From: Halosimplex salinum
GTDB lineage: Archaea > Halobacteriota > Halobacteria > Halobacteriales > Haloarculaceae
DNA: 64,000 nucleotides
Direction: 5' to 3'
NCBI RefSeq assembly: GCF_003730195.1
Contig: NZ_QWGG01000006.1
Span: 124,001 to 188,000 of the forward strand
The translations under genes were made by a program, and so were the position numbers. The stretch's first letter is position 1. Each line of letters opens with the position of its first letter. The notes under the pieces were generated by a model. The model was not told the DNA's origin. It made no database searches and saw nothing but the letters and a program-made list of their open reading frames with translations. Of this stretch, positions 24,054 through 29,699 are shown in pieces.

Positions 24054-24428
24054 ATGAGTCAGCACGACGAGAACCCACCGCCGGGCGAACCGGGGGACGA
24101 CGCCGTGACGTGTTGTTCGCCCGTCGACCGCAGTCTGACCGAAGCGGACGTCGCGGCGGACGTGCAGACGCTCGCGACGCTCGGGAACGACACGCGGTAC
24201 GAGGCGCTCCGACTGATCGCCGACGCCGAGGACGGCGTCTGCGTCTGCGAACTCGAACCGGTTCTCGGCGTGAGTCAGGGGGCCGTCAGCCAGGCGCTCT
24301 CGCGGTTGTTCAGCGCCGGACTGGTCGACAGGCGGAAAGAGGGGCGATGGCGATACTACTCGGCGACCGCCCGGGCGCGCCGACTGCTGGCGGTCCTCGA
24401 CGAGACCAGGGAGGAGCGCGATGACTGA
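24054..24428 (+). CDS. arsR: ArsR-family metalloregulator
   Basis: The 124-residue winged-helix repressor carries the metal-sensing motif GVCVCELEPVLGVSQGAVSQ, with paired Cys at the start of the recognition-helix region as in arsenic/antimony sensors (ELCVCDL box). An extra CC pair lies at residues 20-21. It should repress at the dyads just upstream and release DNA when As(III) binds. It overlaps the methyltransferase gene by 8 bases, making an autoregulated arsenic operon. Confidence 0.9.
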   Translation: MSQHDENPPPGEPGDDAVTCCSPVDRSLTEADVAADVQTLATLGNDTRYEALRLIADAEDGVCVCELEPVLGVSQGAVSQALSRLFSAGLVDRRKEGRWRYYSATARARRLLAVLDETREERDD

Positions 24429-25245
24429 CGACGCCACCACCGACGGGGAGGCGGACGGGCTCGACCCGAGCGACCAGCGCGCCGCCGTCCGCGACCGGTA
24501 CGGGTCCATCACCACCGAGTCGCCGTCGGACTCGTGCTGTGACACCTCCTGTAGCGACGAAACCACGGCGGAGGCCGACAGGCTCGGCTACTCGGACGAG
24601 GACGTGGCGACCGTCGATCCGGACGCGTACTTGGGGCTCGGCTGCGGCAACCCGACCGCTATCGCCGAGCTGAACCGGGGCGAGGACGTCCTCGACCTGG
24701 GCTCCGGCGGCGGGTTCGACTGCTTCCTCGCCGCGCAGGCGGTCGGCGACGACGGCCGGGTCGTCGGCGTCGACATGACGCCCGAGATGGTCGAACGGGC
24801 CCGGGAGACCGCCGAGACGACCGACGCCTCGAACGTCGAGTTCCGACTCGGGGAGATCGAACACCTGCCGGTGCCCGACGAGTCGGTCGACGTGATCCTC
24901 TCGAACTGCGTCGTCAACCTCTCGCCGGACAAGCCACAGGTGTTCCGCGAGGCCTACCGCGTCCTCCGTCCGGGCGGTCGGCTCGCGGTCTCCGACGTCG
25001 TGCTGACGGCCGACCTCCCGGTCGATCTGGCGGCCGATCCCGACTCCGTCGCGGCCTGCGTCGGCGGCGCATCGACCGTCGAAGAGATCGAGGCGATGGC
25101 GACCGACGCCGGGTTCGTCGACGTCGCGATCGAACCGGACGACGACAGCGAGGCGTTCATCCGCGAGTGGGACGACGAGCGCGACCTGAGCGACTACGTC
25201 GTCGCAGCGACGATCGAAGGGACCAGACCGGACGCCGCGCACTGA
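24421..25245 (+). CDS. arsM: Arsenite S-adenosylmethionine methyltransferase
   Basis: The 274-residue protein shows SAM-binding motif I VLDLGSGGGFDCFLA, motif II VVGVDMTPEM and the ArsM hallmark ILSNCVVNLSPDK. The arsenic-binding cysteines appear as the CC and TSC pairs near residues 39-44, the Cys in SNCVVNL and the Cys in AACVGGA. It methylates As(III) stepwise to volatile or less retained methylarsines. Overlap with arsR and a shared promoter support the assignment. Confidence 0.93.
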   Translation: MTDDATTDGEADGLDPSDQRAAVRDRYGSITTESPSDSCCDTSCSDETTAEADRLGYSDEDVATVDPDAYLGLGCGNPTAIAELNRGEDVLDLGSGGGFDCFLAAQAVGDDGRVVGVDMTPEMVERARETAETTDASNVEFRLGEIEHLPVPDESVDVILSNCVVNLSPDKPQVFREAYRVLRPGGRLAVSDVVLTADLPVDLAADPDSVAACVGGASTVEEIEAMATDAGFVDVAIEPDDDSEAFIREWDDERDLSDYVVAATIEGTRPDAAH

Positions 25246-26088: not shown

Positions 26089-27741
26089 TCAGTGCCCGCG
26101 GTCGTGGGGGTTCAGCTCGGTCCCGTAGTGCTCGGCGTGGTCGGTGTAGTCGATGAACCGGGGCGCGTCGGGGTCGAACGGGCGCTTTAGCGAGTCAAAC
26201 GCCTTCTGCTTGTCCCAGGACTGTAGGCCGCCGACGGCCGAGCGGTCCTCGAGGTCGTGGTAGTCGAGGTCGTCTTTCGTCTGCTCCCACGCGTCGAGTC
26301 CCTGCTCGGTCCGGACGATCACCGAGGAGTACTCGTCGCTCGACCCGACCGACCCGACGGTGAGGTCGGCGCAGTAGCCGGTGAAGTCGGCGCACTCGTC
26401 ACAGCCCTTGAGCGCGGCGTCGTGGAAGTTCTCGACGTCTTCGTCGACCAGCAACTCGCCGTCGTGGTCGTAGGCCATCATCCGGCCGTCGAGCACGTCC
26501 ATCTTGCCCACGGTATCGAGGTCGATCCCCCGCTGTTCGACCAGCTGCTCGCCCATGAGCTTCTGATAGTTGAAGTTCTTCGTGCACATCAGGGCCATGG
26601 TGTACTCGATGGACCGGACGCCCTCCTCGTGGGAGCCGTACTCCCACTCGAAGTCCTGCAGGGCGCGGATCCCCTCGATCTCGCAGGGCGTGCCGACGAG
26701 GGCGAGCGACGCGTCCTCGATGGGGCCATCGATCTTGTGCGCCCACTGCTCGAGGTCGAGGTTGCCGAGCGCCATCGTCTGGTTGTAGACGCTGCCGGCG
26801 TTCTCGATGCACTCTTCGGGGGTGGTCGCGAGGAAGGACTCGGCCTTCCACGGTTCGTCGTCGCTCTCGGTGGCGATGAGCGCACCGTCGATCTCGCCCG
26901 CTTCCAGCAGGTGGACCAGGACGGAGGTGACGAGGCCGCCGTCCTGTGCGTTCTCGCGCCAGTCGTCCTCGACCTTCGCGGAGAACTCGGTGATCGGATC
27001 GCCCGCACCCTTGACGTTGTCGTCGCCGCCGGTGATCTTCCACTGGCGCTCGTAGCGAAGGCCGCCGCGCGGACAGAAGTCCCAGCACAGCGAACAGCCC
27101 GTGCACATCTTCACGAGTTCGGGCAGGCCGTCGTCGCCGATGCCGATGGAGTCCGACGGACAGGACGCGACACAGGTGCCACACTGGATACACCGGTCGT
27201 CGTCGATGACCGCCTCGTCGAGTTCCATGAACCACGTCTTGTCGTCCGGCGTCTCGATGTCGTTCATCTGCGACCGGATCTCGTAGGACGGCGTGTCGAG
27301 CGACAGGTCCTCCTCGCCGGGGCGCTGGACGCGGTGGTCGGCTCGCGTCTCGTACACGTCCTGGCTCCGGCCCTCCGCGGGCGCTCTGAACTCGATCCCT
27401 CGGAGTTGGCCGTTCTCGTCGACGTTGGCTGGGGTCGATCCTCCGTCGGGCACTGCACCCGTCGGACCGCTGGCGTTCCCGTCGGAGTGACCGCCGCAGC
27501 CACAGGAACTCCCGCAGCCACAGTCGCCTTCGTCGGCACTCCGTCCGGTGTCAGGCACGCCGGGCATGGGTCCGTCGCGCCCGCCGTCCGTCAGCAACCG
27601 CGACTCGTCCAGTTCGAGGTCGTCGGCGTCACGGCCGTCGCGGCAGGCCCCGTCCTCGGCGAGTTCCGGCGCCACGTCGGCGGGCGCGACCTGTTCGCAC
27701 TCGGCGCCGCGTCGCTGCTCGCGCTCCCCCTCAGTCCCCAT
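26089..27741 (-). CDS. FrhB/FpoF-like F420-binding iron-sulfur protein
   Basis: The 550-residue protein has a disordered N-terminus with a Cys-rich cluster (CGCGSSCGCGG). A ferredoxin-type module with two [4Fe-4S] motifs (CIQCGTCVASCP and CTGCSLCWDFCP, around 190-240) follows, then the FrhB N- and C-terminal domains (EDDWRENAQDGGLVTSVLVH, LVGTPCEIEGIRAL, GCDECADFTGYCADL). This architecture oxidises reduced coenzyme F420 with FAD and passes electrons through iron-sulfur centres. It overlaps the siroheme reductase gene by 11 bases (ATG) or 20 bases (GTG at 27750). It is most likely the electron input subunit for that reductase. Confidence 0.88.
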   Translation of the reverse strand: MGTEGEREQRRGAECEQVAPADVAPELAEDGACRDGRDADDLELDESRLLTDGGRDGPMPGVPDTGRSADEGDCGCGSSCGCGGHSDGNASGPTGAVPDGGSTPANVDENGQLRGIEFRAPAEGRSQDVYETRADHRVQRPGEEDLSLDTPSYEIRSQMNDIETPDDKTWFMELDEAVIDDDRCIQCGTCVASCPSDSIGIGDDGLPELVKMCTGCSLCWDFCPRGGLRYERQWKITGGDDNVKGAGDPITEFSAKVEDDWRENAQDGGLVTSVLVHLLEAGEIDGALIATESDDEPWKAESFLATTPEECIENAGSVYNQTMALGNLDLEQWAHKIDGPIEDASLALVGTPCEIEGIRALQDFEWEYGSHEEGVRSIEYTMALMCTKNFNYQKLMGEQLVEQRGIDLDTVGKMDVLDGRMMAYDHDGELLVDEDVENFHDAALKGCDECADFTGYCADLTVGSVGSSDEYSSVIVRTEQGLDAWEQTKDDLDYHDLEDRSAVGGLQSWDKQKAFDSLKRPFDPDAPRFIDYTDHAEHYGTELNPHDRGH

Positions 27742-29437
27742 GGGCGACACCTCCCGAGACGTTGGCGTCGGCGCGTTGCATGACCTTTCTGAGGCGCTTG
27801 GTCCCGACGCGGCGGGTCCACTCGTAGAACCGCTCGCCCTCGTCGCGCTCGTCGACGTAGGCCGCGAACAGCTCCTCGATGGCCGGAATGACCGCGCTGG
27901 CGGGGACGGCGTTCTCGACCCAGTCGAGGAACTCGTTGTCGGACCCGAGCGACCCGCCGAGGCCGAAGTCCATCCCCTCGACGATGTTGTCCCCTTCTTC
28001 GTTGGTCGTGCCCTCGGGGTCGTCGAGGTTCACCGTCTCGCCGCGGAAGCCGATGTCGGCGATCTGTGGCTGAGCACACGAGGCCGAACAGCCCGACATG
28101 TGCATCCGCACCACGTCGAGGTCGTTGGGCGTGTCGATCCGGCGGTCGAGCGCCTTCGCCCACCGGTACACTCGGTTCTTGGTCTCGATGATGCCGTAGT
28201 TGCAGAACTCCGACCCCGTGCAGCCGACCGCGCCCCGGGAGAACGGCCCCGGGTCGTGCTCGTACTTGCGGGCGAACGGCTCGTTCAGCAGGTCGCCGAC
28301 GTTCTCCCGCGGGACGTGGGTGATCAGGAAGTTCTGGTCCGTCGCGAGCCGGATCGAGGCGTCCTCGGTGCCGTATTCGCGCGCCGCGCGGGCCGCTTCG
28401 GCGAACTCGTCGCCGCCCATCCGACCGGCGACGACGTTGAACCCGACGTACTTCAGCCCCTCGGCCTTCTGGTCGTGGACGCCGACGTGGTCACCGGTGT
28501 ACCCGACCGTGAGGTCGGTCCCGCCGGTCGGCAGGTCGACCTCGCAGCGCCGTCGGACGGCCCGCTCGAACTCCTCGGTCCCGAGTTGCTGGACGAGATA
28601 CCGCATCCGGCAGACGCCGCGGTTGTTGCGGTCGCCGAGTTCCTTGAACGTCTGGGCGATGGCGCGGCAGAACTCCACCGCGTCGCCCGGCGGGACGAAC
28701 ACGTCCATCTGCGTGGCCATCCGCGGCCCGTCGGAGAGGCCGCCGCCGACCTTGCAGTGGAAGCCGTAGATCTCCTCTCCGCCGACTTCCTTCCGCGCGG
28801 GCGTCAGCCCGACGTCGTTGATCTGGGACTGTCCGCAGTCGTGCGCACAGCCGGTGATAGTCATCTTGAACTTCCGGGGCAGGTTGGCGTACTCGCGGTT
28901 GCCCGTGAAGTACTCGGAGACGGCGTCGATCACCGGTTGCGCGTCGAAGCACTCGTGGTCGTCGAGGCCGGCCGCGGGACAGCCGAGGACGTTCCGGGCG
29001 CCGTCGCCACAGCCCTGGATCGTCGTCAGCCCGACCTCGTCGTACTTCGCCCAGATCTCCGGGACGTCCTCGACCTCGATCCAGTGTTTCTGGATGTCTT
29101 GCCGGGTCGTGATGTCGAGGAAGGCGTCGCCCCAGATCGAGTTCTGCTCCTCGCCGCCGTGTTCCTCGGGCGCGGTGGCGTACTCCTCGGCGACCTCGCC
29201 GATCACCTCGGCCTGGTCGGGCGTGAGATGGCCCCCCGGGACCTTGGTGCGCATCATGAAGTAGCCGTCCTGCCGCCCGTGAGAGTACATGCCGGCCCAC
29301 TTGAGTCGCTCCCACTCGCCGTCGCCCGCTCGCTCCTCTATCTCCTCGAACGTGAGCCCCTCTTCGGCGTACTCCTTCACGTCCTCGACCACGTCGAGCG
29401 GGTGTTTCTCCTGTTTCCACTCCTCGACGGTGTTCAT
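27731..29437 (-). CDS. Siroheme [4Fe-4S] nitrite/sulfite reductase
   Basis: The 568-residue protein contains both ferredoxin-like and siroheme/4Fe-4S half-repeats of the NirA/CysI family. The cluster and siroheme ligands appear as GCTGSEFC and GCSASC (C-x5-C and C-x3-C). The first half has KFKMTITGCAHDCGQSQ and substrate-site arginines such as CRMRYLV. It performs six-electron reduction of nitrite to ammonia or sulfite to sulfide; sequence alone does not decide which. Overlap with an F420-oxidising FrhB-like gene suggests F420H2 or ferredoxin as donor. The ATG overlaps the stop of a tiny upstream frame (ATGA). Confidence 0.9.
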   Translation of the reverse strand: MNTVEEWKQEKHPLDVVEDVKEYAEEGLTFEEIEERAGDGEWERLKWAGMYSHGRQDGYFMMRTKVPGGHLTPDQAEVIGEVAEEYATAPEEHGGEEQNSIWGDAFLDITTRQDIQKHWIEVEDVPEIWAKYDEVGLTTIQGCGDGARNVLGCPAAGLDDHECFDAQPVIDAVSEYFTGNREYANLPRKFKMTITGCAHDCGQSQINDVGLTPARKEVGGEEIYGFHCKVGGGLSDGPRMATQMDVFVPPGDAVEFCRAIAQTFKELGDRNNRGVCRMRYLVQQLGTEEFERAVRRRCEVDLPTGGTDLTVGYTGDHVGVHDQKAEGLKYVGFNVVAGRMGGDEFAEAARAAREYGTEDASIRLATDQNFLITHVPRENVGDLLNEPFARKYEHDPGPFSRGAVGCTGSEFCNYGIIETKNRVYRWAKALDRRIDTPNDLDVVRMHMSGCSASCAQPQIADIGFRGETVNLDDPEGTTNEEGDNIVEGMDFGLGGSLGSDNEFLDWVENAVPASAVIPAIEELFAAYVDERDEGERFYEWTRRVGTKRLRKVMQRADANVSGGVAHGD

Positions 29438-29547
29438 GCGAGCCACCCCTGGGTGGTGAGCCGAGCCACGCGAGGCGAACCTCGTCGGACTCGTCCGACG
29501 GTGGCGAGCATGTGCTCGTCGCGCGCGAAGCGTGCGACGGTGTTCAC
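29434..29547 (-). CDS. Tiny ORF coupled to the siroheme reductase
   Basis: A 37-codon frame starts at GTG, overlapping the stop of the upstream tiny frame (GTGA), and ends at a TGA that overlaps the reductase ATG (ATGA). The peptide is basic (HMLATVGRVRRGSPRVARL). The chain of overlaps suggests translational coupling or a leader peptide, but composition is not convincing and no homologue is known to me. Confidence 0.28.
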   Translation of the reverse strand: MNTVARFARDEHMLATVGRVRRGSPRVARLTTQGWLA

Positions 29548-29699
29548 GGCGACCACCTCCCGCTGTCGCGTCTGGCACCGCGGGCTGGCCGTCTCCGCGC
29601 TCGCTCGACCGCTTCGAGCGAGCGCCCGTCGGCCTCCGTTCCGTCGGCGTTCGTGGCGCGTTCCCCCGCGATCTGTTCGGATGAACCTGTTGTGAGCAT
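29544..29699 (-). CDS. Tiny leader ORF of the reductase operon
   Basis: The 51-codon frame begins at ATG 8 bases after GGAGGAG, one of the few good Shine-Dalgarno sequences in the window. The first 30 residues (TGSSEQIAGERATNADGTE) have haloarchaeal codon use; the last 15 are Arg-rich. Its stop overlaps the next tiny frame. It may be a real small protein or a leader whose translation controls the reductase genes. Confidence 0.35.
   Translation of the reverse strand: MLTTGSSEQIAGERATNADGTEADGRSLEAVERARRRPARGARRDSGRWSP

Follow-up and report, generated by a model that had tools for sequence, protein, structure and literature searches.

A candidate F420H2-dependent assimilatory sulfite reductase encoded by an overlapping gene pair of Halosimplex salinum

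The gene pair and its closest described systems

The F420-dependent sulfite reductases (Fsr, groups I and II) of methanogens and anaerobic methanotrophic archaea (ANME) couple a FrhB-type F420H2 oxidase and a dicluster ferredoxin to a siroheme reductase. A module composed of a two-cluster ferredoxin and a FrhB domain with flavin adenine dinucleotide (FAD) and one [4Fe-4S] is also found in the zeta subunit of carbon monoxide dehydrogenase (CODH) and in FwdI of Candidatus Ethanoperedens (8riu, 8rja; PMC11493965). For haloarchaea, Susanti and Mukhopadhyay (2012) proposed an F420H2-dependent assimilatory-type sulfite reductase, named aFsr, with homologues that include Halorhabdus utahensis, Halogeometricum borinquense, Haloterrigena turkmenica, Rubrobacter, and Thermobaculum proteins (PMC3448663). 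Here we describe a gene pair from a 64,000-nt stretch of Halosimplex salinum DNA (hereafter the window), in which a siroheme reductase gene (product P0002, aFsr-alpha) overlaps the gene of a FrhB-like protein (P0001, aFsr-beta). Judging from sequence comparisons, the pair probably encodes a two-subunit aFsr. Its genes are the following:

27731..29437, minus strand: aFsr-alpha, NirA/SirA-type siroheme reductase of 568 aa with two A-B repeats (Pfam, PDB relatives)
26089..27741, minus strand: aFsr-beta, N-terminal extension, dicluster ferredoxin, and FrhB-type FAD/[4Fe-4S] domain (Pfam)
27731..27750, minus strand: overlap of the two genes, 20 nt (GTG start) or 11 nt (ATG start) (sequence)

The open reading frame (ORF) of aFsr-alpha runs from an ATG at 29437, a position kept among relatives, to a stop at 27731. 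That of aFsr-beta ends at 26089 and has two possible starts, ATG 27741 (550 aa) and GTG 27750 (553 aa), the former being more likely because an 11-nt overlap is also annotated in the Haloferax mediterranei orthologues. Nearly all relatives exhibit the overlap, and the two genes seem to form a unit of their own.

Compared with the 2012 proposal, the window pair shows no essential difference. An aSir-type siroheme gene adjoins a FrhB gene with two N-terminal ferredoxin-type [4Fe-4S] centres, which is the same two-gene design of an aSir-type alpha and an Fsr-N-like beta in haloarchaea. Since aFsr had already been proposed, the pair is a further member of a predicted kind. What is new beyond 2012 is the linkage to F420 biosynthesis (cof) genes, the sulfite-type pocket as opposed to that of NasA-linked NirA, the congruent subunit trees, and the F420 partners of a rhodanese-fused branch.

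The resemblance to Fsr has limits. Fsr is a single polypeptide whose siroheme half is single-repeat and Dsr-like, with an inserted ferredoxin domain, whereas aFsr comprises two polypeptides from overlapping genes, and its two-repeat NirA/SirA-type alpha subunit is devoid of an inserted ferredoxin. An original prediction, made from the letters of the window alone, had placed overlapping FrhB-like and siroheme reductase genes here and likened them to a split Fsr. Both genes are indeed at this place, but the split-Fsr origin is rejected by domain content and by the trees described below: the siroheme half matches plant nitrite reductase (NiR) with an E-value of 3e-84 as compared with 1e-8 for Fsr, and the FrhB halves form a clade of their own, distinct from the Fsr sampled. 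As the siroheme half is NirA/SirA-type and far from methanogen Fsr, aFsr would be an independent assembly. The CODH zeta and FwdI modules are likewise attached to an enzyme that relatives link to ferredoxin (PMC11493965); they reduce F420 using electrons from CO or formylmethanofuran, whereas aFsr-beta should act as an F420H2 oxidase.

In the proposed mechanism, aFsr-beta would oxidise F420H2 at its FAD, which would split the hydride into single electrons. These would then pass via the FrhB-domain [4Fe-4S] (cluster 1) to the two ferredoxin-domain clusters of beta, the ferredoxin domain docking at the site that free ferredoxin would occupy on a NirA/SirA-type alpha subunit. In alpha, six electrons would flow through the siroheme-[4Fe-4S] centre, reducing sulfite to sulfide for cysteine synthesis, with nitrite probably a side substrate. 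At -360 mV, F420H2 is negative enough to serve as donor to sulfite, which lies at -116 mV (PMC9295563).

Domains and cofactor residues of the two subunits

Pfam analysis of aFsr-beta reports, in this order, a Fer4 dicluster (Fer4_21), FrhB_FdhB_N, and FrhB_FdhB_C. Its nearest solved relatives are the F420-reductase (zeta) subunit of CODH (8riu_B, E-value 6e-40), Fsr (7np8, 2e-38), and FrhB (6qgr, 1e-27). Foldseek searches with two weak AlphaFold2 (AF2) models rank F420 proteins first and the ferredoxin-linked 7-hydroxymethyl chlorophyll a reductase (HCAR) after them (E-value 1e-14). Regarding aFsr-alpha, Pfam reports NIR_SIR (E-value 9e-55) and NIR_SIR_ferr, each over more than one stretch, and no Fer4. 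Plant NiR (3b0l, 3e-84) and M. tuberculosis NirA (1zj8, 2e-68) are the nearest solved structures, and the match with methanogen Fsr (1e-8) covers only part of the chain. The likeness to 3b0l and 1zj8 extends over nearly the full length and comprises the fold, the two repeats, and the C-x5-C and C-x3-C motifs; unlike both, aFsr-alpha has an obligate-looking FrhB partner. The motifs of the two subunits are as follows:

28859..28876, minus strand: RKFKMT, Lys189 and Lys191 of the alpha substrate pocket, sulfite-type K-x-K (alignment)
28202..28222, minus strand: CTGSEFC, C-x5-C, first half of the siroheme-coupled [4Fe-4S] motif (Cys406, Cys412 invariant)
28076..28090, minus strand: CSASC, C-x3-C, second half of this motif (Cys450, Cys454 invariant)
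27490..27522, minus strand: CGCGSSCGCGG, Cys-rich segment of beta, residues 77-87 of the GTG-start protein (sequence)
27157..27192, minus strand: CIQCGTCVASCP, first ferredoxin-domain [4Fe-4S] motif of beta (four Cys in at least 97% of relatives)
27070..27105, minus strand: CTGCSLCWDFCP, second ferredoxin-domain [4Fe-4S] motif of beta (four Cys in at least 97% of relatives)
26935..26946, minus strand: QDGG, FAD pyrophosphate loop of FrhB (retained by every aFsr and bacterial member sampled)
26671..26688, minus strand: PCEIEG, Cys356, first ligand of cluster 1 (motif match to Fsr)
26383..26403, minus strand: CDECADF, Cys450 and Cys453 of cluster 1 (invariant)

The QDGG-type FAD loop has been described likewise for FrhB. 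Cys356, Cys389, Cys450, and Cys453 of aFsr-beta fit the non-canonical P-C...C...C-x2-C motif of Fsr, and 40 of the 65 columns conserved across methanogen FrhB-family proteins are kept. Conservation throughout the relatives extends to the QDGG loop and to the cysteines of the ferredoxin domain (eight) and of cluster 1 (four). Together with co-inheritance and cof linkage, the FrhB-family fold and these cofactor residues make F420H2, which aFsr-beta would bind and oxidise, the best reading of the donor, as originally predicted. Elsewhere among non-haloarchaeal Halobacteriota, FrhB-family proteins in four loci (L173, L174, L178, L179) possess a short Cys-containing N-terminal domain followed by two Fer4 motifs.

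The pocket and cluster residues of aFsr-alpha are R63, R148, K189, K191, C406, C412, C450, and C454, and agree with the sulfite-reductase signature, an Arg/Arg/Lys/Lys set conserved across sulfite reductases (PMC10229431). In addition, the first repeat of haloarchaeal siroheme reductases keeps Cys153, Cys197, and Cys201, with Cys143 in some types, and these cysteines possibly form a second [4Fe-4S] site; tobacco NiR has no cysteines at the positions of Cys197 and Cys201.

The Cys-rich segment of aFsr-beta, flagged from the start as an extra feature, is present but not constant. It lies in a disordered-looking extension of ~95-270 residues. Most relatives have 3-5 cysteines in this segment, at least seven have none, and the motif degenerates among them to CGCGSSCGCG, CSPxTCTCGEK, CCxDGxCTC, and others. 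The extension is absent from the bacterial (Chloroflexota) and rhodanese-type partners and from some haloarchaeal members. A catalytic role was rejected because of this variability and of its absence from several haloarchaeal members and the bacterial partner; the Cys-rich N-terminus is most likely a dispensable appendage, perhaps metal-binding or regulatory.

Co-inheritance, F420 biosynthesis genes, and the rhodanese branch

Eighty loci from other genomes were retrieved with aFsr-beta. In 79 of them an aFsr-alpha orthologue lies directly upstream of beta; the gene order does not vary, and the overlap is missing only rarely. Such adjacency is far above chance. The lone exception (L067) is a second beta copy in a genome that also holds an intact pair. 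The 79 paired loci include one Chloroflexi contig (54-55% identity), and both genes recur, without the haloarchaeal N-terminal extension, in another Chloroflexota genome; the protein was found in only 2 of 301 Chloroflexota genomes surveyed. Within haloarchaea, 39 of 145 genomes encode the aFsr type (cut-off E < 1e-150); a control search of Haloferax volcanii detected no gene of the FrhB family.

In the tree of siroheme reductases, the enzymes with a FrhB partner (window, Chloroflexota, and rhodanese types) fall into a single clade with full support, separate from the stand-alone and the NasA-linked paralogues, which have no FrhB partner. In the FrhB tree, the aFsr, bacterial, and rhodanese-type partners likewise group together (100/100), apart from the methanogen FrhB and FpoF-like proteins sampled and from four fused Fsr, all of Halobacteriota and probably not including group I. 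Both trees, which are unrooted, have the topology (rhodanese type, (Chloroflexota, window type)), and since they branch alike the two subunits stayed together.

The pair is also linked to F420 biosynthesis. At seven loci, the pair has cofG as its immediate upstream neighbour and is followed downstream by cofH in the opposite orientation (L033, QS_4_69_34; L053, Halogranum; L063, Salinigranum; L068 and L079, Halegenticoccus; L077 and L078, Halarchaeum), and in Halospeciosus (L037) cofH only stands beside it. Further upstream, cofC is present in L053 and L079, the two loci checked for it, where NCBIfam confirms the CofC, CofG, and CofH names. As these loci are relatives of one another rather than independent cases, no p value is attached to this linkage. 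The Halosimplex salinum genome has cofG elsewhere than at the pair. Haloarchaea make F420, but its role has been called enigmatic or unknown, with only one F420-dependent reaction reported in halophiles (PMC8305020).

A second haloarchaeal FrhB-like family, 41-49% identical to aFsr-beta, is encoded by 18 of the 145 genomes. A siroheme reductase gene is directly upstream in all 14 loci read, and likewise on plasmids of Natronococcus occultus and Halomontanus rarus. The reductases checked by Pfam carry an N-terminal tandem rhodanese, and the rhodanese catalytic-site Cys (LYCNTARR) is present in 16 of 16. The loci are:

L090-L103, L182, L183 (e.g. L094:8269-11891, minus strand for L094): rhodanese-fused reductase and FrhB-like gene

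The neighbours in L097 include a gene with a 3'-phosphoadenosine-5'-phosphosulfate (PAPS) reductase domain and, for siroheme synthesis, one gene resembling CysG-N and one for a tetrapyrrole methylase. At L182, on the Natronococcus occultus plasmid, the pair adjoins nosZ. A rhodanese fusion to NirA of Halobacteria (cluster 195.2) was noted in 2024 (PMC11237513), in passages that make no mention of a FrhB/F420-type partner. This enzyme is sister to the window type in both trees and has its FrhB partner gene directly downstream, but bears the tandem rhodanese that the window type lacks. For Natronomonas pharaonis, conversion of thiosulfate to sulfite and then sulfide using NP4004A was proposed earlier (PMC3402447). 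Pfeiffer et al. list the FrhB-like protein NP_4006A as 27% identical to Fsr (PMC8305020); to go by the locus numbers, it is probably a neighbour of NP4004A.

Around the window pair, a VapB/VapC-like gene pair lies downstream and an opposite-strand gene starts upstream. Two short minus-strand ORFs (51 and 37 aa; window 29438-29690) lie ahead of the siroheme gene, with a four-base overlap between each of them and the start that follows, and many relatives have a 20-30 aa ORF with the same end point ahead of aFsr-alpha; a GGTGG motif together with the ATGAAC context of the start may account for this pattern. In three relatives (L018, L021, L073), a uroporphyrinogen-III methyltransferase-like gene for siroheme synthesis is located no more than a few kb upstream of the pair. 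Further away in the window (24054-25245, plus strand), an ArsR-type regulator gene overlaps a methyltransferase gene whose product has a Cys-rich N-terminal stretch and resembles the arsenite methyltransferase ArsM.

Substrate, electron donor, and significance

The original prediction left the choice between nitrite and sulfite open, and here sulfite is clearly favoured, the K-x-K pocket making nitrite the less likely of the two. Position 191 is Lys in 79 of 79 window-type alpha subunits, 30 of 30 stand-alone enzymes, 16 of 16 rhodanese types, and 2 of 2 Chloroflexota members, versus Asn in 30 of 30 NasA-linked NirA. PDB alignment places an Asn of tobacco NiR at the equivalent position, so that aFsr-alpha has Lys where the plant NiR pocket has Asn. 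We take an Asn226/Lys discriminator to operate in plant NiR; a literature search did not turn it up.

An F420H2-dependent nitrite reductase, serving nitrite assimilation or detoxification, is nevertheless an unlikely reading that has to be weighed. Among family models, aFsr-alpha scores highest for 'ferredoxin--nitrite reductase', and the ANME Fsr homologue FsrII reduces nitrite, not sulfite, with F420H2 (PMC9295563). The name NirA is not decisive, because M. tuberculosis NirA is a sulfite reductase according to a passage of PMC11237513 quoting its reference 94. Genome content bears on both sides, with all co-occurrence counts given here confounded by clade. NasA accompanies aFsr above expectation (29/39 vs 35/106, p 1e-5; one family, p 2e-4), which could point to nitrite, and one haloarchaeal genome with NasA, G107, apparently contains aFsr and no further siroheme reductase, so that it offers a natural test of aFsr's capacity for nitrite. 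However, a dedicated NasA-linked NirA, with its K-x-N pocket, is already present in 60 of 64 NasA-bearing haloarchaeal genomes, and 10 of the 39 aFsr genomes have no NasA. Halosimplex salinum itself has three siroheme reductase genes, namely aFsr-alpha, a stand-alone one (L088), and L089 near NasA and a MobA-like gene. No nitrate genes were recognised among the conserved neighbours of the pair, and relatives are tied to rhodanese, PAPS-reductase-domain, and siroheme-synthesis genes. In addition, aFsr and the stand-alone K-x-K reductase are distributed as if they replaced each other (14 genomes with both, 25 with aFsr only, 81 with the other only, 25 with neither; Fisher p 1e-5). ATP sulfurylase linkage was set aside as uninformative evidence, because PF01747 occurs in only 3 of 145 haloarchaeal genomes, and the three weak PAPS_reduct loci of the Halosimplex salinum genome are not decisive.

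The FrhB fold can also work without F420, as in HCAR, and it is conceivable, at somewhat longer odds than the nitrite reading, that aFsr-beta uses ferredoxin or another carrier in the same way. The fold match with HCAR fits this, as do the unknown haloarchaeal roles of F420 (PMC8305020) and Lys391 (window 26572-26586, minus strand), which replaces the Glu of methanogen F420 enzymes (GLFC-x-E) and might point to a change close to the F420 channel. At this position after the cluster-1 Cys, the rhodanese branch has Arg or Gln, Lys being found in the aFsr-beta family. Against a carrier other than F420, the sequence match with HCAR is at noise level (E-value 0.02, versus 1e-27 to 1e-40 for F420 enzymes, to which aFsr-beta is nearer), cofG and cofH are linked to the pair in seven loci, and the layout of N-terminal dicluster and FrhB recurs in the F420 modules established for CODH and Fwd (PMC11493965). 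It seems very improbable that aFsr-alpha is an ordinary ferredoxin-dependent reductase, with a FrhB-like protein that runs in the other direction or has a separate function: NirA/SirA-type enzymes elsewhere depend on ferredoxin, but the conserved overlap, the matching trees, and a whole siroheme clade with its partner in all but one locus examined argue for joint action.

Several points weigh against a two-subunit F420H2-dependent sulfite reductase beyond the Lys391 substitution and the NasA co-occurrence already given. The AF2 models of aFsr-beta, full-length and core, reach a mean pLDDT of 57 and 64, respectively, and are of low confidence; the anti-correlation with the stand-alone reductase drops to p 0.05 at genus level; and no PAPS-reductase gene was seen adjoining the window-type pair. 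Activity data for the aFsr predicted in 2012 were not found in the literature either. On balance, we infer that alpha and beta form a complex in which F420H2 is the donor and sulfite the physiological substrate.

We tentatively propose, as a possibility somewhat short of an even chance, that F420H2-driven sulfite reduction is a main physiological role of F420 in many aerobic haloarchaea, that it arose independently of methanogen Fsr by plug-in of an F420 module on a NirA/SirA-type reductase, and that the rhodanese branch joins thiosulfate cleavage and F420H2-dependent reduction of the released sulfite in one complex. Sulfide formation in haloarchaea has been described as little known (PMC3402447). 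If the proposal is true, one conserved enzyme would answer the questions of both the haloarchaeal F420 role and the sulfide source, and the 'ferredoxin--nitrite reductase' label on these genes would be corrected, e.g. for the Haloferax mediterranei copy. Because H. mediterranei ATCC 33500 carries the pair, as E6P09_RS15580/RS15575, on pHME505, aFsr is approachable in an established model. F420-dependent sulfite reduction would then have been invented a second time, independently.

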